A stretch of DNA of 64,000 nt from Larkinella soli (GTDB lineage: Bacteria; Bacteroidota; Bacteroidia; Cytophagales; Spirosomataceae): contig NZ_QTJY01000008.1 in the NCBI RefSeq assembly GCF_003703975.1, positions 1 through 64,000 of the forward strand. Reading direction: 5' to 3'. Both the position numbers and the translations under genes were made by a program. This document shows, piece by piece, positions 26,885 through 35,905 of the stretch (the first letter of the stretch is position 1; each line of letters begins with the position of its first letter). Under the pieces are notes generated by a model. The model was not told the origin of the DNA and did not search any database. It saw only the letters and a program-made list of their open reading frames with translations.

Positions 26885-27772
26885 ATGCTTGCGCACTTCC
26901 TGGAACACATCCGCTACGAAAAACGCCTGAGCCACCATACGCTCACGGCCTACCGCAACGACCTGGAACAGTTTCAGGCCTTCCTGAACAATCGGTTCGA
27001 GCTGGAAGGAGCCGAAAAGGCCGACTTTCACCAGATCCGTTCCTGGATCGTGGAACTGGTCGAGAACGGGCTGGACAAAACCTCCGTCAACCGCAAGATT
27101 GCCACCCTGCGCAGCTTTTACGGTTTTCTGCTCCGCCGGAAAGCGATTACCGCCGACCCGATGCTGAAAATTCAGGCGCTGAAAACCAGCCGGAAAATTC
27201 CGGTGTTCGTGGAGGAAAAGCCGATGGAAACGCTGCTGGACGAATGCGACTTCCCGGACGACTTCAGCGGCCTGCGCGACAAACTCGTTCTGGAACTGCT
27301 CTACGGCACCGGCATCCGGCTTTCAGAACTGATCGGGCTGAAAACCACCGACATCAACCTCTACGAAAAAACCATCACGGTACTCGGGAAGCGCAATAAA
27401 CACCGGATCATTCCGGTTCCCGAAACGCTCTTTTCGCTGCTTCAGCAATACCGGGAGGAAAAAGAAAACCGCTTTCCGCAGTCGCCGGACGGGCTGTATC
27501 TGATTCTGAGCGACCAGGGCATCAAAGCCTACCCGGTGCTGATCCAGCGGATCGTGAAGCGGTATCTGGGGCTGGTTACCACCCTGAAAAAAAAGAGCCC
27601 GCATGTGCTGCGGCATACCTACGCTACCCATCTGCTCAACCACGGCGCCGACCTGAACGCCATCAAGGATCTGCTCGGCCACAGCAGCCTGGCGGCCACC
27701 CAGGTGTATACGCACACCACCATCGAAAAATTGAAGAAAACCTACGAGCAGGCCCATCCAAAAGCAAAATGA
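26885..27772 (+). CDS. xerC: Tyrosine recombinase XerC/XerD type
   Basis: A 295-residue site-specific recombinase with the SAM-like N-terminal domain (about 1-85) and the catalytic domain. Catalytic residues are visible: R145 (GTGIRLSEL), H240 and R243 (HVLRHT), H266 (LLGHSS) and the nucleophile Y275 (VYTHTT). Length and context next to rpsU match the chromosomal Xer of Bacteroidota that resolves chromosome dimers, not a phage integrase. C or D assignment is tentative. Confidence 0.9.
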   Translation: MLAHFLEHIRYEKRLSHHTLTAYRNDLEQFQAFLNNRFELEGAEKADFHQIRSWIVELVENGLDKTSVNRKIATLRSFYGFLLRRKAITADPMLKIQALKTSRKIPVFVEEKPMETLLDECDFPDDFSGLRDKLVLELLYGTGIRLSELIGLKTTDINLYEKTITVLGKRNKHRIIPVPETLFSLLQQYREEKENRFPQSPDGLYLILSDQGIKAYPVLIQRIVKRYLGLVTTLKKKSPHVLRHTYATHLLNHGADLNAIKDLLGHSSLAATQVYTHTTIEKLKKTYEQAHPKAK

Positions 27773-27787: not shown

Positions 27788-28516
27788 ATGAACATCCCTG
27801 CCCTTTCCGATACCCTTTTTGATCTGATCCGGCAACAACCCAACGCCGGCCCCGGAACGGCCTACCTCAGCCGGGAGGTGGAAGCCTACCGCAGCGAACC
27901 CAACACCGCCCTGTTTTACCGCGTTTTCACGGCCATCCCCCGTTTTGTCGGGAAACAGACGCTCACCGTCGACAAGGAGTCGGCGCAGCGCCTGAATGCT
28001 CTGCGCTCCGGCTTTTCGGTCGAAGGCTGGTCCGTCGACCGGCTGGCCCGTGTCTGGTGGCTGCTTCAGCTTCCGGCCGACGACCCGACCGCCTATTTCA
28101 GTACCGTCGAGAACCTGTTCCGGGCCGCCGAGATGAATGAACTGGTGGCTCTGTATTCGGCCCTGCCGGTCCTGGCCTATCCCGAACACTGGCGCTTTCT
28201 GGCGACCGAAGCCGTCCGGAGCAACATCGGCCCCGTTCAGGAAGCCATCATGCTGCATAACCCCTACCCGGCCGAACAACTCGACGAACCGGCCTGGAAC
28301 CAGTTCATTATGAAGGCGTTCTTTACGGACAAACCCGTCGAACACATTCTGGGCTTTCACGAACGCGCCAACGAACACCTCGCCCGTATCGTGACGGATT
28401 ACGCCCGGGAACGCCGGGCCGCCGGCCGCACCGTACACCCCCAGTTGTGGCCCCTCGTGAAACCGTTCGCTTCCGAAGCCGACCGCACGGAACTCGAACA
28501 CCTCTTTAACGCCTAA
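27788..28516 (+). CDS. eboA: EboA domain protein, first gene of the ebo cluster
   Basis: A 242-residue, mostly helical protein without a signal peptide or recognised catalytic motif. It is assigned to EboA by its general pattern (WWLLQLPADDP, AYPEHWRFLATEAVRSNIGPV, AIMLHNPYPAEQL, FITDKPVE-like FFTDKPVEHILG) and because the other five ebo genes follow within 1.6-7 kb. Ebo proteins are needed for export of a scytonemin precursor in Nostoc and act in repellent traits in Pseudomonas, but EboA's own reaction is unknown. It is separated from eboB by two reverse-strand genes. Confidence 0.85.
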   Translation: MNIPALSDTLFDLIRQQPNAGPGTAYLSREVEAYRSEPNTALFYRVFTAIPRFVGKQTLTVDKESAQRLNALRSGFSVEGWSVDRLARVWWLLQLPADDPTAYFSTVENLFRAAEMNELVALYSALPVLAYPEHWRFLATEAVRSNIGPVQEAIMLHNPYPAEQLDEPAWNQFIMKAFFTDKPVEHILGFHERANEHLARIVTDYARERRAAGRTVHPQLWPLVKPFASEADRTELEHLFNA

Positions 28517-28542
28517 TCCCGGGCCCTGGTCCGGGATTAGGC
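28511..28542. terminator. Hairpin between eboA and the convergent barrel gene
   Basis: A 12-bp perfect stem (GCCTAATCCCGG / CCGGGATTAGGC, 8-nt loop) overlaps the eboA stop codon. There is no T-run on either side, so it may be a bidirectional stop or an RNA 3' end stabiliser. Confidence 0.6.
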
Positions 28543-28569
28543 GATTCAATCGGTTCTGAGAAACCCGGC

Positions 28570-29247
28570 TTACCACCAGTGGTAGGAAAGCCCGACCGAA
28601 ACCAGCACATTACCGCTGTTTTTCAACTCGTTGTAATTAAAAAAGACGTGCTGATACTGGGCCTGAATCTCAGCCCCTAGGTTGCTGTTCCGGCCGAACA
28701 GGAACTTAGCCCCCACCGCCGGAGCCACGGCGGCCCGCACGCCCGTCTTCTGATCGGCCAGCGACCCGTAGTAGGTGGTATAATCGACGTAAGCGCCCCC
28801 GGCTCCCAACTGCACATACGGCCGGAAGGGTGCGTTCCGCTCGGTCAGATGATAAGACCCGATTGCCATTAGCGGAACCAGCGTGAGCGTGCGGGTCTGT
28901 ACGGCCGAAACATCCGATCCGTCACCGAGTGAAATGACCTGACGCGGAAGCCGGTCCGACGTATACTGGTGGCCGATGCGGCCGCCAAGGGATAAATGCC
29001 CCGGGAAATCGGCTTCGATCGCCAGCGCGAAGTTGCGCGTCCCCATTTTATCGATATAGCTCTGCTGGGAGGAAGTCGGGAAGCCGACCCCGTAAAAAAC
29101 CGTAGCCGAGCCGGAGGAATACCGGCTGTTGTTGGGAACCCGGCCTCGGGCGCGCGGCCGCTCTTCCGGGTCGGCACCGATCTGGGCATAGGCGGAAAAG
29201 CCCCACGCCAGCCCGATCAGGGTGAAAATGAGTTGGATCCGTTTCAT
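28570..29247 (-). CDS. Outer-membrane beta-barrel protein
   Basis: A 225-residue protein with a signal peptide (MKRIQLIFTLIGLAWGFSAYAQ) and eight or so amphipathic strands; the last strand ends in an aromatic residue (SVGLSYHWW), the usual outer-membrane barrel C-terminus. It resembles small OmpW/OmpA-type barrels. It forms a pair with the DUF4136 lipoprotein gene (7-bp gap), both inserted in reverse between eboA and eboB. A link with ebo function is only a guess. Confidence 0.78.
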   Translation of the reverse strand: MKRIQLIFTLIGLAWGFSAYAQIGADPEERPRARGRVPNNSRYSSGSATVFYGVGFPTSSQQSYIDKMGTRNFALAIEADFPGHLSLGGRIGHQYTSDRLPRQVISLGDGSDVSAVQTRTLTLVPLMAIGSYHLTERNAPFRPYVQLGAGGAYVDYTTYYGSLADQKTGVRAAVAPAVGAKFLFGRNSNLGAEIQAQYQHVFFNYNELKNSGNVLVSVGLSYHWW

Positions 29248-29253
29248 GGTCGT

Positions 29254-29895
29254 TTACTGGTTCGCCCGCAGATAGGTTGACTGACTGAATACACTGGAGA
29301 GCAGGTTGTCCAGGGAAGCATCGTCGAAGATGCCGCTGCCCCGGATTTCGGCCTGCCAGATCACGTTGAGCTGACAGTCGCTGGTGTTGCGGTTCCGGAG
29401 GTCTACCATCTGGATCATCCAATAGTCGTCACTTACCTGGTAGAACGAATAATAGTTGGGGTAAGACGGATAATAATTGAACCCATACCCTCCGAAGCCC
29501 CAGTAGTCCAGGTAGTAAGGAGAAAAAGGCGAGGTAGTCACCCCGACGTACTGGTTGCTGATCCGGATGACGGCCACCCCGATATCCGGGTTCGTGGACC
29601 GCGCTACCCGCTGATAGCCCCGGCTGGTCAGCGTCTGCGCCAGACGGTCCAGAAACCGCAGTTCCAGCGCCGAAGCCGATGTACCTTCCTGATTATTGGA
29701 AACGACCACCACCGAATCCGGCAGGCTGAAGGTCCGGTAGTTGGCGAAGTTGACCGAGCGGTCATAGTTGGTAATAAAGACCTGACTATCTTCGGCGGTC
29801 AGGTCAGCGAGCGGGTCGGGCCGGCAGGAAGAAATTCCACTTCCCATTCCTGCACTGACCACCACCCACAGCAGAATCTTGCACAATCGTTCCAT
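29254..29895 (-). CDS. DUF4136 lipoprotein
   Basis: A 213-residue lipoprotein, starting at ATG 29895 (MERLCKILLWVVVSAGM), with the lipobox ISSC. The DUF4136 domain covers most of the rest: NFANYRTFSLP near the start, NPDIGVAVIRISN in the middle and QLNVIWQAEIRG near the end. The Tyr/Gly/Pro-rich middle is typical of the family. A paralogue lies at 53954. Function unknown; envelope location is clear from the lipobox. Confidence 0.85.
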   Translation of the reverse strand: MERLCKILLWVVVSAGMGSGISSCRPDPLADLTAEDSQVFITNYDRSVNFANYRTFSLPDSVVVVSNNQEGTSASALELRFLDRLAQTLTSRGYQRVARSTNPDIGVAVIRISNQYVGVTTSPFSPYYLDYWGFGGYGFNYYPSYPNYYSFYQVSDDYWMIQMVDLRNRNTSDCQLNVIWQAEIRGSGIFDDASLDNLLSSVFSQSTYLRANQ

Positions 29896-30083
29896 GATAA
29901 ATACTGACAATTAAGTTGTAACCGACTATTTAACTATGGGTTTCGGTTAAAGTTTGAACGAGTGAGAAAGTGATAAATATCATCGGAAACGGGAAAGAAA
30001 ACTTTCTTTAGTCATTGAACCGGAACGTTGAATCTTGCAATTTGCAACCCAATCCAAACGGTTTCCGATACCCATTCAATCGT

Positions 30084-31016
30084 ATGAGCTTTTTAGAAAC
30101 GATACGCGGGATGAAGTTTTTCGACATGCACGTCCACATGACGTCCCGCACGACCGACGACTACCAGGCGATGGCCGACGCCGGTATCGTCGCCCTCATC
30201 GAGCCGGCTTTCTGGCTCGGTCAGCCCCGAACGGGGGTGGACTCGTTCCGGGACTATTTCGCCAGCCTCGTGGGTTGGGAGCGGTTCCGGGCGTTGCAGT
30301 TCGGAATCCGCCATTACTGCACCATTGGTCTGAACTCGAAAGAAGCCAACAACGAGGCCCTGGCCGAACAGGTGATGGAGATTCTGCCCCTGTTTCTTTA
30401 TAAGGAAGGCGTTGTCGGTGTGGGCGAAATCGGCTTCGACGACCAGACTCCGGCCGAGGAGAAATACTACCGCGCCCAGCTCGACCTGGCCCGGGAAGCT
30501 AATCTGCCCGTGCAGATCCATACCCCGCACCGCGACAAGAAGCAGGGTACGAGCCGCAGCATGGACATCGCTCTCGAACATGGCCTCGCCCCCGGCATGG
30601 TGATCGTCGACCATAACAACGAGGAGACCGTAAAGGAAGTCCTGGACCGGGGCTTCTGGGCCGGTTTTACGATCTACCCGTTCACGAAAATGGGCAACGA
30701 GCGGATGGTGGAAGTGGTGAGGCAGTACGGACCGGAGCGTATCATGGTCAATTCGGCCGCCGACTGGGGCATCAGCGATCCGCTGGCCGTACCGAAAACG
30801 GCCGCCCTGATGAAGGAACGCGGTATCTCGGAGGAAGCCATCCGACTGGTGACCTTTCAGAACGCTCTGACGGCCTTCGGGCAGAGCGGCCAGGTCAGCG
30901 CCGAAGACCTCGAACAACCCATCGACATCGACCAGAGCCAGCGCTACAACGGCAGTTCGGTGCTGCGCGGGGGCCAGGCGCCGAGGGTCGATAAGGCATC
31001 GACGATCATTAAGTAA
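30084..31016 (+). CDS. eboB: TatD-like metal-dependent hydrolase EboB
   Basis: A 310-residue TIM-barrel hydrolase starting at ATG 30084 (MSFLETIRGMKFFDMHVHM). The metal site begins with HVH, and GVGEIGFDDQTPAEE, LPVQIHTPHRD and MVIVDHNNEE supply the further His/Glu/Asp ligands of TatD/amidohydrolase enzymes. EboB proteins form their own branch in this family; the substrate is unknown. It starts the block eboB-eboC-eboD-eboE-eboF on the plus strand, with a 117-bp gap to eboC. Confidence 0.88.
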   Translation: MSFLETIRGMKFFDMHVHMTSRTTDDYQAMADAGIVALIEPAFWLGQPRTGVDSFRDYFASLVGWERFRALQFGIRHYCTIGLNSKEANNEALAEQVMEILPLFLYKEGVVGVGEIGFDDQTPAEEKYYRAQLDLAREANLPVQIHTPHRDKKQGTSRSMDIALEHGLAPGMVIVDHNNEETVKEVLDRGFWAGFTIYPFTKMGNERMVEVVRQYGPERIMVNSAADWGISDPLAVPKTAALMKERGISEEAIRLVTFQNALTAFGQSGQVSAEDLEQPIDIDQSQRYNGSSVLRGGQAPRVDKASTIIK

Positions 31017-31032
31017 ACTAATCCTGAATAGC

Positions 31033-31116
31033 GAATAATGAATATCGAATAAGGCAGGGTTAATACCCGGTACGGCTTTCCGGCGGAGCTTCTTCGTTAT
31101 TCGATATTCATTATTC
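31033..31116. repeat. Perfect 20-bp inverted repeat between eboB and eboC
   Basis: The arms 31033-31052 and 31097-31116 (GAATAATGAATATCGAATAA and its exact complement) flank 44 nt with a small GGGT/ACCC stem. It fills most of the eboB-eboC gap and could fold as a hairpin in the mRNA, or be a small interspersed palindrome. Confidence 0.75.
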
Positions 31117-31132
31117 CTCATTCGATAGTCCC

Positions 31133-32014
31133 TTGGCGAAGCTCCTCCCTCTGCTGCGTTTAACCCGCCCGGCCAACCTCGTTACCGCCGTTGCCGACGT
31201 CCTGGCCGGGATGGCCATTGCCGGGTATTTTCTGATTCCGGATGCCGACCCCGTTCCGGTGGGCTGGCTCTGCCTGTCGACCGTCGGCCTGTACGGGGGA
31301 GGGGTGGTGTTCAACGACGTGTTCGATGCCGAACTGGACGCCGTCGAACGCCCTGAGCGGCCGATCCCGAGCGGACAGGTCAGCCTCCGGCAGGCCACGC
31401 TGCTGGCCGTCGGGCTGCTGCTGATCGGCATCGGAGCGGCTTTCCGGGTCAATACGACGGCCGGTCTGCTGGCGGTCGCCATTGCGGTGGCATCGGTCAT
31501 TTATGATCGTTACGGAAAACACCACGCCTTTTTCGGTCCGCTGAACATGGGTTTGTGCCGGGGGCTGAATCTGCTGCTCGGCGTCGGCATTCTGCCGGAC
31601 CAGGTGCAGCCGTGGGCCTGGGTCGGCCTCATTCCGATCATTTACATTGCCGCCATCACGATGATCAGCCGGGGCGAAGTCCACGGCGGCAATGTCGGAG
31701 CGCTGCGGCTGGCCGGTATGCTCTACGGGCTGGTCATCGCCGGCATTGCGGCCATCGCGCAGTACCGCAACCAGCTCGGGACCGCCTTCCCGTTTCTTCT
31801 CATTTTCGGATATTTCATCTTCCCTCCGCTCTGGCGGGCCGTCCGCGAACCGGCGGGCCGGAATATCGGAATGGCCGTAAAAGCCGGAGTGCTTTCCCTC
31901 ATCGTCATGAATGCCGCCTGGGTGGCCGCGTTCGCGTCGTTTCCCCTGGCGATGCTGGTGGTCTGTTTATTGCCGCTTTCGCGATTACTGGCAAAAGCAT
32001 TCGCGGTTACCTGA
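31133..32014 (+). CDS. eboC: UbiA-family prenyltransferase-like protein EboC
   Basis: A 293-residue membrane protein with about eight or nine hydrophobic segments. The first Asp-rich motif of UbiA enzymes is present (NDVFDAELDAVERPERPIPSG). The second motif, usually DxxxD, is replaced by MISRGEVHGGN, so its catalysis may differ. The start is TTG 31133; no ATG precedes the conserved N-terminus. Family members attach prenyl chains to aromatic or polar acceptors in the membrane. It is the membrane enzyme of the ebo set. Confidence 0.86.
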   Translation: MAKLLPLLRLTRPANLVTAVADVLAGMAIAGYFLIPDADPVPVGWLCLSTVGLYGGGVVFNDVFDAELDAVERPERPIPSGQVSLRQATLLAVGLLLIGIGAAFRVNTTAGLLAVAIAVASVIYDRYGKHHAFFGPLNMGLCRGLNLLLGVGILPDQVQPWAWVGLIPIIYIAAITMISRGEVHGGNVGALRLAGMLYGLVIAGIAAIAQYRNQLGTAFPFLLIFGYFIFPPLWRAVREPAGRNIGMAVKAGVLSLIVMNAAWVAAFASFPLAMLVVCLLPLSRLLAKAFAVT

Positions 32015-32048
32015 ACCGGAAGGGGTAGTATTCCGTTTCATTTTTAGG

Positions 32049-32056
32049 TAACTTTG
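32049..32056 (+). promoter_or_regulatory. Probable -7 element before eboD
   Basis: TAACTTTG matches TAnnTTTG, 29 bp before the eboD ATG. It would give eboD-E-F a second start of transcription downstream of eboC. No clear -33 element is found. Confidence 0.5.
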
Positions 32057-32085
32057 AGTTTTTATAGCCATTAGCGTCACCTGTT

Positions 32086-33234
32086 ATGAATACCCTGCAT
32101 CAGTCGTTCAGCGTCCGGTTTACGTATGACGTATACTTTACCGAAAACCTGTTCGACACCCTGAATCCTGCCCTACTCGATTTTTTCAAGAAACACCATA
32201 CGGAAGGCTACCGCAAGAAACTCCTGTTCATTCTCGACCAGGGGGTGGTGGCCGGCCACCCGGATTTACCGGAACGGATCAATACCTACTTTGCCTCCCA
32301 ATCCGTCGTCGACCTGGTTCCGGACCTGATCGTGATCCCGGGCGGGGAGGGCGCCAAGAACGACCCGACGCTGGTGGACCGGCTGGTCGATGCGGTAGAC
32401 CGCTACGGGATCGACCGCCATTCCTACGTGCTGGCCGTCGGCGGGGGCTCGGTGCTGGATCTGGTCGGTTATGTGGCCGCCATCTCTCACCGGGGCATCC
32501 GGCACGTCCGCATCCCGACGACGGTATTGTCACAGAACGATTCCGGAGTAGGGGTCAAAAACGGCATCAACTACCACAGCAAGAAGAACTTTCTCGGCTC
32601 CTTTGCTCCGCCGGTGGCGGTTTTCAACGATTCCACTTTCCTGACGACCCTCGACGACCGCGACTGGCGGTCCGGCATCTCGGAGGCCGTCAAGGTGGCC
32701 CTGATCAAGGACCAGGTCTTCTTCGGGTGGCTGGAGGAAAACGCCGGGAAGCTGGCCGCCCGCGACAAGGCCGCCATGGAATACCTCGTGCATCGCTGCG
32801 CCGAACTGCACCTCAACCACATTGCCAGCGGGGACCCGTTCGAGATGGGCTCGTCGCGACCCCTTGATTTCGGCCACTGGAGCGCCCACAAACTGGAGCA
32901 GCTGACCGGTTTTGAAGTCCGGCACGGGGAAGCGGTCGCCATCGGCATTGCCATGGACAGCCTGTACTCCTACCGGCTCGGCTGGCTCACCCAGGCGGAA
33001 GTCAACCGCATCCTGAATCTCGAACGGGCGCTTGGTTTCGACCTCTACCATCCGGCGCTCGAAGGCGACAGTGTTCTGAAAGGACTGGGCGAATTTCGCG
33101 AACACCTCGGCGGACTGCTGACCATTATGCTCCTGCGGTCCATCGGAACCGGAGAAGAAGTCCACGAAATGGATGAGAACCTGATCCGCGAAGTCATCAC
33201 CACCCTCAAAGAGACTGAAGCGCAGCCCGTATGA
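32086..33234 (+). CDS. eboD: 3-dehydroquinate synthase-like EboD
   Basis: A 382-residue member of the sugar-phosphate cyclase superfamily. NAD-binding motifs are GGEGAKND and [15 protein letters not shown]; the metal ligands fit [22 protein letters not shown] and [33 protein letters not shown] is typical of the EboD branch. Sugar phosphate cyclases make carbocycles from sedoheptulose-7-phosphate or DAHP; which one EboD uses is unknown. A housekeeping aroB elsewhere is expected. The stop overlaps the eboE start by 4 bp. Confidence 0.9.
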
Positions 33235-34445
33235 AGACCCCGCTGGGACACCTAAGTTACTGCACCAACATACACCCCGGGGAAGACTGGAACAGCCATT
33301 TTCAGGCAATCCAGCAGGCCGTTCCGGGCATCAAACGCGAGCTTTCACCCGACCGTCTCTTCGGGATCGGCCTCCGCCTTTCCAACGTGGCCGCCGTGGA
33401 GCTGTCCCGGCCCGAACAGGTGGCCGAATTCAAATCCTGGCTCGAAGCCAACGGCTGCTACGTCTTCACGATGAACGGATTTCCGTTCGGCGGCTTTCAC
33501 CGGACCCGCGTCAAAGACCAGGTCCACGCCCCCGACTGGCGGACTGAAGCGCGGGCCGACTACACCATCCGGATGTTCCGGATTCTGGCTGACCTGCAAT
33601 CCGGCGACATAACCACCCAACCCGGTATTTCGACCTCGCCCCTCTCCTACCGGCACTGGTTCCGGTGGGACGACCGCGACGAGCGCGACCGGATTTTCGA
33701 AGCGACTACCCAGCGTCTGGCGACGGTCGTGGAAGAACTCGTCCGGATCAAGCGCGGGCGGGGGCTGAGCATGCACCTCGACATCGAACCCGAACCCGAC
33801 GGCCTGCTGGAAACCGGCACCGAGTTCATCGACTGGTTCAATCTGTACCTCCTGCCCATCGGCATCGAGCGGCTGAACGAAACTTTCGGGATGTCGGCGG
33901 CCGAAGCGGAAGCGGCTTTGAAGGAACACGTCCAGCTTTGCTTCGACGTATGTCACTTTGCGGTCGGTTTCGAGCAGACCGACGAGGTGTTGCAGCAACT
34001 GAGGAAAAACGGCCTGAAGGTCGGCAAGATTCAAATCAGCGCGGCCCTGAAAGCCACTTTCCCGCAGGAGCCCAACGGGCGGGTGATGGTGCGCGACCAG
34101 TTCCGGCATTTTAACGAACCGACCTATCTTCATCAGGTGGTGGCCCTCGACGACGAGGGGCAGCTGCTCCGGTTCCCGGATTTACCCGAAGCACTCGAAG
34201 CCTTCGACGACGGCCATGCCGAATGGCGGGCACACTTCCACGTACCGATTTTCATCGAAGATTACGGGCTGCTGCGGTCCACCCAGGACGAGATTCTGAA
34301 CGTGCTCCGGCTTCAGCAGGAAACCCCCTTTACGGACCAGCTGGAGGTGGAAACCTATACCTGGGAGGTGCTGCCCGAAGAACTGAAACTTCCCCTGAAC
34401 GAATCGATCACGCGGGAGCTGGAATGGGTGTTAACCAATATCTGA
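33231..34445 (+). CDS. eboE: Metabolite traffic protein EboE (xylose isomerase-like TIM barrel)
   Basis: A 404-residue protein with a sugar isomerase/epimerase-like barrel and no signal peptide. Conserved acidic and His positions are seen in SMHLDIEPEPDGLLE, LCFDVCHFAVGFE, KVGKIQISAALKA and RAHFHVPIFIEDYG, consistent with a divalent metal site. The name follows the ebo cluster; the reaction is unknown. It overlaps eboD (ATGA) and is 7 bp from eboF, so the three genes are translated from one message. Confidence 0.88.
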   Translation: MKTPLGHLSYCTNIHPGEDWNSHFQAIQQAVPGIKRELSPDRLFGIGLRLSNVAAVELSRPEQVAEFKSWLEANGCYVFTMNGFPFGGFHRTRVKDQVHAPDWRTEARADYTIRMFRILADLQSGDITTQPGISTSPLSYRHWFRWDDRDERDRIFEATTQRLATVVEELVRIKRGRGLSMHLDIEPEPDGLLETGTEFIDWFNLYLLPIGIERLNETFGMSAAEAEAALKEHVQLCFDVCHFAVGFEQTDEVLQQLRKNGLKVGKIQISAALKATFPQEPNGRVMVRDQFRHFNEPTYLHQVVALDDEGQLLRFPDLPEALEAFDDGHAEWRAHFHVPIFIEDYGLLRSTQDEILNVLRLQQETPFTDQLEVETYTWEVLPEELKLPLNESITRELEWVLTNI

Positions 34446-34452
34446 AAAGGAG

Positions 34453-35835
34453 ATGAACAAGACCATCGTACTCGACGTGGTGGGGCTTTCGTCGTCGCTG
34501 ATCGGCGAGCATACCCCCTTTCTGAAACAATGGCTGAGCAATAAAAAACTGTCGACCATCGATCCGATGCTGCCGGCGGTTACTACCTCCGTCCAGTCGA
34601 CCTACGTCACAGGCCAGTGGCCCACCGAACACGGCATCGTGGGCAACGGCTGGTATGACCGCATCGACTGCGAAGTAAAGTTCTGGAAACAGGCGAACAA
34701 GCTCGTGGCCGGGGAGAAAATTTGGGAGAAAGCCCGGCGGCTGGACCCCTCCTTCACGGTTTCCAAGATGTTCTGGTGGTACAATATGTACTCCTCGGCC
34801 GACTTTTCGGTGACCCCCCGCCCGCAATACCACGCCGACGGCGTCAAGGCGCCCGACTGCTACAGCCACCCCGCCGACCTCCGCGACCGCCTTCAGGATG
34901 CCCTCGGCACCTTTCCCCTGTTCAACTTCTGGGGGCCGAACGCCAACATCAAATCGTCGCGCTGGATTGCCGATGCCTCGATGCTCGTCGACCGCTGGCA
35001 CAACCCGACGCTGACGCTGATCTACCTGCCCCACCTCGACTACGGTCTGCAGAAGTTCGGGCAGGATTTCGGCAAAATCGGCAAAGACCTCGGCGAAATC
35101 GACCACGTCTGCCGCGACCTGATCCAGTTTTATGAGAAGCAGGGCGCTCATGTCATCCTGCTGTCGGAATACGGTATTACGAATGTCAACCGCCCGATTC
35201 ACCTGAACCGCAGTCTCCGGGAGGCCGGGCTGATTCAGGTGCGGGTCGAGCAGGGCCTGGAACTGCTGGACCCCGGCGCTTCCCGGGCGTTTGTCGTCGC
35301 CGACCACCAGGTGGCCCATGTCTACGTCAACGACCCTTCCTGCACGGCCCAGGTACGCGCCCTTCTCGAAAAAACACCCGGCGTCGAGCTGGTTCTCGAT
35401 GATGCCGGGAAGAAACAATACCACATCGATCATGAACGCTCCGGCGATTTCGTGGTCATGGCCGACGCCGACAGCTGGTTTACCTACTATTACTGGCAGG
35501 ACGACGCCAAAGCTCCGGATTACGCCCGGCTGGTGGATATTCACCGGAAACCCGGGTACGACCCCGTGGAGATGTTCATGGACCCGGCCAACCCGATGGT
35601 CAAGCTGAAGGCCGGCTATAAACTCATTCGTAAAAAGCTGGGGTTCCGTTACCTGATGAACGTCATTCCGCTGGATGCCACCCTGGTGAAAGGCTCGCAC
35701 GGACGGGTCGGCACGCGGCCTGAATTCCATCCGGTCTTCGCCGACAGCCGCTCCGACGGCAAACCGCTTCAGGCAACCGACGTCTTCAGCCGGGTTTGGG
35801 AAACCCTGACGGCCGGGATTTATCAGACAAGCTGA
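34453..35835 (+). CDS. eboF: Alkaline phosphatase/nucleotide pyrophosphatase-like EboF
   Basis: A 460-residue member of the type I phosphodiesterase/nucleotide pyrophosphatase group. Metal-site features are VLDVVGLSSSLI (Asp), the Thr nucleophile region PAVTTSVQSTYVTG, LPHLDYGLQKFG, LLSEYGITNV and KGSHGRVG (His). No signal peptide is seen, so it should act in the cytoplasm unless exported by another way. A GGAG sits directly before the ATG. It closes the ebo operon and is followed by a strong terminator. Confidence 0.88.
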   Translation: MNKTIVLDVVGLSSSLIGEHTPFLKQWLSNKKLSTIDPMLPAVTTSVQSTYVTGQWPTEHGIVGNGWYDRIDCEVKFWKQANKLVAGEKIWEKARRLDPSFTVSKMFWWYNMYSSADFSVTPRPQYHADGVKAPDCYSHPADLRDRLQDALGTFPLFNFWGPNANIKSSRWIADASMLVDRWHNPTLTLIYLPHLDYGLQKFGQDFGKIGKDLGEIDHVCRDLIQFYEKQGAHVILLSEYGITNVNRPIHLNRSLREAGLIQVRVEQGLELLDPGASRAFVVADHQVAHVYVNDPSCTAQVRALLEKTPGVELVLDDAGKKQYHIDHERSGDFVVMADADSWFTYYYWQDDAKAPDYARLVDIHRKPGYDPVEMFMDPANPMVKLKAGYKLIRKKLGFRYLMNVIPLDATLVKGSHGRVGTRPEFHPVFADSRSDGKPLQATDVFSRVWETLTAGIYQTS

Positions 35836-35866
35836 ACGGCCGGCCGGGGACTTTTCCAACGCCCTG

Positions 35867-35905
35867 ACCCCGTCGAGGACCGAATCCTCGACGGGGTTTT
35901 TCTTT
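35867..35905 (+). terminator. Terminator of the ebo operon
   Basis: A 12-bp perfect stem (CCCCGTCGAGGA / TCCTCGACGGGG) with a CCGAA loop, followed by TTTTTCTTTTT. Confidence 0.93.

Follow-up and report, generated by a model that had tools for sequence, protein, structure and literature searches.

What do the ebo genes make? The question is raised by a cluster of six genes, eboA to eboF, at positions 27788-35835 of a 64,000-nucleotide stretch of the Larkinella soli genome (hereafter the window). When the cluster received its name in 2016, its product had yet to be identified (PMC5133447). In Nostoc, the scytonemin monomer stays in the cytoplasm once any of the examined ebo genes is lost, eboD being outside that mutant analysis, and insertions in the eboA, eboD or eboE homologue of Pseudomonas fluorescens are cited second-hand in the same paper as giving an edible phenotype (PMC6282210). 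Eustigmatophyte plastids also carry an ebo set (PMC5133447). These reports agree with the background given in the initial annotation of the locus, which had named Nostoc export, a Pseudomonas trait and the eustigmatophyte plastids. The cluster, its gene families, the EboA/EboG alternative, and the ideas of a prenylated cyclitol and of a carrier are already known, an isoprenoid-cyclitol and lipid-carrier proposal having been published (PMC5133447, PMC6282210, PMC9235831). Here we describe clusters in which eboD is exchanged for a gene encoding inositol-3-phosphate synthase (MIPS), an exchange that turns “some carbocycle” into a specific, testable question on the ebo product.

The exchange appears in plasmid records. 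Among the 51 with an EboB of the ebo type (identity of 43.4% or more; eight further records, out of 59 in all, reached 27.5% or less and were dropped as TatD paralogues), eboD was nearby in 16 and MIPS in 32, none held both, and three held neither. Nearby means within ~4.5 kb of eboB for eboD and within ~3.5 kb for MIPS; eboD was counted at an identity of at least 44.7% among the best 40 of 115 records, the remaining 24 of these reaching at most 36.0%. Some of the 51 stretches are partial clusters (that of Gloeothece, L127, shows B and D only), and 27 records are from Streptomyces, many of them near-copies; counted by genus, eight have eboD and seven have MIPS. The three records with neither gene are from Streptomyces (L314, L315) and Haladaptatus (L134). 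Both of these Streptomyces clusters break off inside eboA, and MIPS, a prenyltransferase and a sugar phosphate isomerase/epimerase (SPI) were not found upstream. Across all 154 profiled stretches, eboD and MIPS never occurred together in one stretch.

The MIPS type spans Actinomycetota, Halobacteria and Gemmatimonadota. In all four annotated Streptomyces plasmids examined, the row reads inositol-3-phosphate synthase, SCO3242 prenyltransferase, SPI (a second xylose-isomerase-like, TIM-barrel enzyme), EboA, EboB, EboE and EboF, without eboD. In three of the four haloarchaeal plasmids examined, one stretch holds MIPS along with EboB, EboF and a UbiA protein, and tblastn and profile searches located further MIPS-type sets in unannotated records of Nonomuraea, Embleya and Gemmatirosa. 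Both MIPS domains (PF07994 and PF01658) were confirmed by Pfam in the two proteins examined, and the solved structure nearest to the Streptomyces ebo MIPS is itself a MIPS (1u1i, 229 bits). Compared with the window, the MIPS-type clusters of Streptomyces, haloarchaea and Gemmatirosa share EboB, EboF and a UbiA-family protein, those of Streptomyces also EboA and EboE, but inositol-3-phosphate synthase and the extra TIM-barrel enzyme replace eboD. EboA was not found in the haloarchaeal stretches and Gemmatirosa has EboG, whereas the window has EboA.

Some neighbours of these clusters were recorded as well. Of the four Streptomyces MIPS-type clusters examined, two have an annotated ScyD/ScyE family protein right upstream (L119 2817-4016 and L121 3779-4981), with a multicopper oxidase near; they may point to periplasmic steps of a scytonemin-like kind beyond the cyanobacteria. 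The eboD gene of Gloeothece adjoins a ferritin-like protein (PF12902) and a ~660-aa protein without a Pfam match (L127 10981-14262), and that of Mycetohabitans adjoins an annotated ferritin-like protein and a hypothetical protein of similar size (L129 38-3120).

On sequence grounds, the exchange suggests that the unknown ebo product holds a sugar-derived ring; it supports a cyclitol product, one molecule shared by both types not being implied. We lean slightly towards the view that the eboD-type set makes a membrane lipid, composed of a sugar-derived ring (cyclitol) and an isoprenoid chain, and that the finished lipid would be a carrier or cofactor letting other metabolites reach the periplasm. 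EboD would cyclise a sugar phosphate, since its superfamily does so and since elsewhere it is replaced by MIPS, the enzyme that produces inositol phosphate, usually together with SPI. The ring would be modified by EboE and EboB and rearranged by EboE and SPI. EboC would join the isoprenoid in the inner membrane, perhaps to a hydroxyl, the group prenylated by the geranylgeranylglycerol-phosphate enzymes; EboF would cleave a phosphate ester, removing phosphate, and EboA would be a helical scaffold. The basis for this proposal is family membership, conservation and the exchange described here, together with the Nostoc export defect and the in vitro activity of EboC from papers; the ring as the EboD product, the order of steps and the carrier role are what we infer. 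Where the initial annotation had proposed, in line with the published idea, a prenylated or carbocyclic compound acting in metabolite traffic, the exchange strengthens the carbocyclic half, and the prenylated half comes from family membership and published EboC farnesylation. A stronger version, in which the product is a widespread lipid of prenylated-inositol type and the ring made by MIPS and SPI is reached independently by EboD, an unrelated enzyme, strikes us as unlikely; if true, it would be a non-homologous replacement within a membrane-lipid pathway common to bacteria, archaea and algal plastids.

EboD had initially been described as a dehydroquinate-synthase-like cyclase. Its place in the cyclase superfamily stands, and a role as the housekeeping dehydroquinate synthase, AroB, is rejected as unlikely. 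A separate, true aroB on contig 14 reaches 340 bits against TIGR01357, for which EboD, at 221.5 bits, stays under the cut-off of 305. At 15 columns of an alignment of 108 EboD and 21 AroB sequences (20 of the AroB rows from one genus and one from the window's genome), all 21 AroB agree on one residue and no fewer than 101 of the 108 EboD on a different one. An annotated sedoheptulose 7-phosphate cyclase of Streptomyces clavuligerus agrees with EboD at 6 of these 15 columns and with AroB at 2. The solved structure closest to EboD is 4p53, “Cyclase”, which we take to be ValA (residues 12-380, 170.8 bits); the dehydroquinate synthase 5eks matches almost equally, at 170.4 bits over a shorter stretch (82-372). 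In a published tree, EboD forms its own clade near the sedoheptulose-7-phosphate cyclases (Yurchenko et al. 2016, PMC5133447). EboD also exceeds NF004852, a model named “3-dehydroquinate synthase” (569 bits, cut-off 333), a label that the exchange with MIPS argues against. Taken at face value, the NF004852 label would accord with a prenylated aromatic product, for example a quinoline derivative, with EboD feeding an aromatic, shikimate-like branch, as would the in vitro farnesylation of 8-hydroxyquinoline-2-carboxylic acid by EboC orthologues (PMC9235831). We consider such a product very improbable, given the separate aroB in the genome, the 15 near-fixed columns at which EboD is unlike AroB, and the replacement of eboD by MIPS, an enzyme known to make a non-aromatic product.

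The window itself is not of the MIPS type, its genome (99.98% complete) having no PF01658 match. Among 17 hand-chosen ebo-positive genomes of the window's phylum, PF01658 was detected in one, G298, whose cluster is without eboD and in which a search for EboD gave an aroB-like match only. Within the genus of G298 (21 genomes), EboE is present in 11, MIPS in 10 and eboD in one, G434. The ten genomes with MIPS are all ebo-positive and without eboD, their clusters reading ABCEF; G434 has ABCDEF and no MIPS; and the ten ebo-negative genomes have neither gene. Completeness is 55% for G437 and 88% for G436; in G435 even an aroB-like match was missing, and in G428 another cyclase was matched, at 31% identity. 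In the ten genomes MIPS lies elsewhere in the genome, outside the ebo cluster, with SPI within 6 kb in nine and directly adjacent in five; in G433, the region surrounding MIPS gave no SPI match.

An EboB tree of 60 hand-chosen rows, built by a quick method, requires five changes between the eboD and MIPS types over its 56 labelled rows, ten of which were labelled MIPS from a gene elsewhere in the genome; four rows are unlabelled. The changes are cis-linked in three places (haloarchaea, Actinomycetota and Gemmatirosa), and the rest depend on MIPS elsewhere in the genome. Several observations weigh against the proposed lipid or the exchange on which it draws, beginning with the genus of G298. 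The clusters of G421 (MIPS) and G434 (eboD) group with other genera in the EboB tree, away from the remainder of their own genus, so the genus is no single lineage swapping a gene; judged from these sequences, ebo clusters of separate origins have come together with hosts some of which have MIPS and some of which do not. With kinship considered, the co-occurrence of the genes comes down to two independent pairs on well-supported branches (sign test, p 0.5), and with only two such pairs the association cannot reach significance. Moreover, in a tree of 30 chosen rows the MIPS proteins of this genus fall beside the Roseomonas one and not with the cis-linked ones. The Roseomonas MIPS sits in a YcaO cluster, with no ebo genes in the stretch examined, and the MIPS locus of G426 holds the same YcaO, oxidoreductase and methyltransferase genes (identified by Pfam, applied within this genus to the G426 locus).

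In the genus of G298, then, MIPS and SPI may serve a YcaO pathway that has nothing to do with ebo, and eboD may simply have been lost, true exchange being confined to plasmid-type clusters. We give this explanation a little less than an even chance. It accounts for the genes that MIPS and SPI enclose at the G426 and Roseomonas loci (YcaO, oxidoreductase and methyltransferase), for the grouping of the MIPS proteins apart from the cis-linked ones and for the non-significant co-occurrence after kinship, and it gains weight from the position in the EboB tree of the G434 cluster, which is of another lineage. It fits less well with the adjacency of MIPS and SPI in five genomes, or with the sole ebo-positive genome without MIPS being the sole one with eboD. 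As a separate observation, MIPS and SPI of G426 (L307 751-9244) and Roseomonas (L317 7977-16564) flank the YcaO gene, a Gfo/Idh/MocA oxidoreductase gene and the methyltransferase gene in what looks like a separate cyclitol cluster.

Further points against the proposed lipid come from published assays and from whole genomes. All 14 acceptors given to EboC orthologues were aromatic, quinoline acids being farnesylated (PMC9235831). A MIPS search in 32 genomes, hand-chosen from 80 loci, was positive in six: five of the 28 whose locus contains eboD (L214 of the 28 is a fragment) and one of the four whose locus does not. The MIPS of the five eboD-positive genomes is distant in four (69-83 bits against the ebo-type MIPS profile) and close in one (G449, 290 bits). 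The sixth genome, G442, has a close MIPS (475 bits) on a contig matching that of its ebo cluster in length (97,578 bases), ~11 kb from the cluster, and a second, distant one. The exclusion of eboD and MIPS thus holds for clusters in the records examined and not for whole genomes, because eboD-positive genomes can hold MIPS elsewhere. The 80 loci, many ending at contig ends, contain eboD in 47 cases, EboG in 72, EboA in 3 and MIPS in 0. At three of them (L142, L200 and L213) C, E and F occur without D, and the prediction that such loci should have MIPS in the genome was weakly borne out, by one genome of the three.

Finally, the eboD type and the MIPS type may make different rings, since MIPS acts on a C6 sugar and the kin of EboD include C7-sugar cyclases. 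The end products would then differ, a C7-ring lipid in the eboD type and an inositol lipid in the MIPS type, and the switch would be a change of product. We rate this as possible but somewhat doubtful; it is compatible with the cyclitol-lipid part of our proposal, and the two are not exclusive. EboD shares 6 of the 15 diagnostic residues with the C7-sugar cyclase and has 4p53 as its best structure, while the MIPS-type clusters have an extra TIM-barrel enzyme and, in Streptomyces, a prenyltransferase of the separate SCO3242 subfamily. Different products are harder to reconcile with the retention of A or G, B, C, E and F in bacterial MIPS-type clusters, and with one genus having both ABCEF without eboD and ABCDEF with it, though in different cluster lineages.

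As for the novelty of the exchange, we found no published report of it: the word “inositol” has 0 hits in the body of PMC5133447, PMC6282210 or PMC9235831, supplements, figures and subscription papers being outside this scope. A MIPS gene may appear in figure 3 of PMC9235831, where the legend mentions clusters of Saccharomonospora.

Returning to the cyclitol-lipid proposal and the locus that raised it, the ebo set in the window is real and canonical, an unremarkable example of the eboD type already described. All six open reading frames lie on the + strand in the published order A-B-C-D-E-F. The first, eboA (27788-28516), encodes 242 aa with an NCBIfam EboA domain (176 bits, cut-off 50), placing the cluster with those that carry EboA and not EboG; eboB (30084-31016) encodes a TatD-like metallo-hydrolase of 310 aa (PF01026); and eboC (31133-32014), with a TTG start, encodes a UbiA-superfamily membrane prenyltransferase of 293 aa (PF01040) that exceeds the EboC equivalog model (412 bits, cut-off 250). 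The 382-aa product of eboD (32086-33234) belongs to the sugar-phosphate-cyclase superfamily (PF01761/PF24621), the 404-aa product of eboE (33231-34445) is a xylose-isomerase-like TIM barrel (EboE equivalog, 484 bits, cut-off 250), and that of eboF (34453-35835) matches PF01663 (203 bits). The claim that eboA to eboF are all recognisable was therefore sound, and the profile check proposed for EboA and EboE came out in its favour. EboB, EboD and EboF, for which no ebo-specific NCBIfam model scored above cut-off, were assigned by general family (PF01026, PF01761 and PF01663) and position. The window EboA reaches 221.6 bits against the NCBIfam EboA_family subfamily model, under its cut-off of 320, and a Pfam scan of it gave no family match; EboE, at 30.3 bits, is marginally under the cut-off of 31.1 for PF01261 (Pfam).

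In alignment A1, EboB keeps the HxH, E, H, H and D positions, presumably metal ligands, invariant or almost so. EboC carries a DxxDxxxD motif, and its runner-up models are SCO3242, PRK12884 and PRK12882 (geranylgeranylglycerol-phosphate geranylgeranyltransferase), all under their own cut-offs. The Ubi-297 prenyltransferases are likewise EboC-type enzymes from ebo clusters with DxxDxxxD, assayed on aromatic acceptors only (PMC9235831). Because 53 of 58 ebo stretches from other genomes of the window's phylum hold the complete six-gene set (a 59th fetched stretch, L078, has no ebo locus and is outside the 58), the set is no chance resemblance.

The window shares six families, EboA in place of EboG and the gene order with the eustigmatophyte plastid/bacterial ABCDEF operon, but it has two opposite-strand genes between eboA and eboB and a short EboA of 242 aa (PMC5133447). 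The Nostoc punctiforme cluster, whose loss causes the export defect, has the same families as the window, whereas only there is eboD just outside the cluster and the cluster within the scytonemin operon; no search for scytonemin genes was made in the window's genome (PMC6282210).

The cluster is near-universal in the window's family. EboE was detected in 107 of its 121 genomes, the window's own counted, and in 24 of 296 genomes of an even phylum sample, 3 of those 24 being from the same family. EboE is thus close to a core gene in the family, a distribution that would be more in keeping with a housekeeping lipid or cofactor than with a sporadic secondary metabolite.

EboA was modelled from four sequences with a mean predicted local distance difference test (pLDDT) score of 90.7 and is helical except for two single strand residues. 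Its structural look-alikes are weak and mostly helical-repeat proteins (best E 0.5). With its predicted fold of stacked helices and this weak likeness, EboA would fit a scaffold as well as the published guess of a TPR-like (tetratricopeptide-repeat-like) protein. A profile match to a synthetic fusion protein (E 2.7e-5) covers profile positions 213-274, near the C-terminal end; the window EboA, shorter at that end than several relatives, lacks part of this region. EboG gave no match to solved structures. Distant kinship of EboA and EboG was considered and rejected, the profile comparison giving a probability of 0.4%, and the published analysis of the EboA/EboG alternative saw no homology either (PMC5133447).

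The initial annotation had also called the cluster complete. All six genes are present, but the row is interrupted: eboA is followed, ahead of eboB, by two - strand genes that are not ebo genes, an outer-membrane beta-barrel-like gene at 28570-29247 (PF13505 at 25 bits, under the cut-off of 28.7) and a DUF4136 gene at 29254-29910 (PF13590, 74 bits). A one-strand, uninterrupted row is thus found for eboBCDEF and not for eboA to eboF. The locus runs from ribosomal protein S21 through a phage-integrase-family gene (26885-27772, PF00589; the name “xerC” was assigned by eye), eboA, the barrel and DUF4136 genes and eboBCDEF to two short-chain dehydrogenases and an S30AE protein. The whole row, insertion included, is kept in all eight same-genus genomes, and the barrel plus DUF4136 insertion is also present in both stretches of a second genus (L074, L075); it was undetected (tblastn, E at most 1e-5) in 25 other stretches of the family showing both A and B.

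Transcription is likely to be split along the same line. The eboD stop and eboE start overlap by 4 bp, the gap between eboE and eboF is 7 bp, and a terminator-like stem-loop of 14 pairs with a T-rich tail lies on the + strand at 35866-35898, 30 bp past eboF; for these reasons eboBCDEF is likely to be its own transcript. A terminator consensus scan gave 21 sites against 14.7 in shuffles, the site after eboF having the most pairs. The eboA start is 15 bp past the phage-integrase-family gene, with which eboA may be co-transcribed. The words TANNTTTG, which we take to be Bacteroidota-type promoter words, occurred at chance frequency (21 against 18.5). An imperfect inverted repeat (32-nucleotide arms, 84% complementary) lies between eboB and eboC (31026-31123); since seven more partial matches at 70-96% identity occur in the genome, it is probably a member of a small repeat family.

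Two further observations concern the arrangement and integrity of the genes in other genomes. In family f23 of the window's phylum (L110, L111, L112, L114 and L117), eboABC and eboDEF are divergent, and the ebo set of that family therefore behaves as two modules. In genome G299, EboE is broken across two reading frames (L118 6762-7942).

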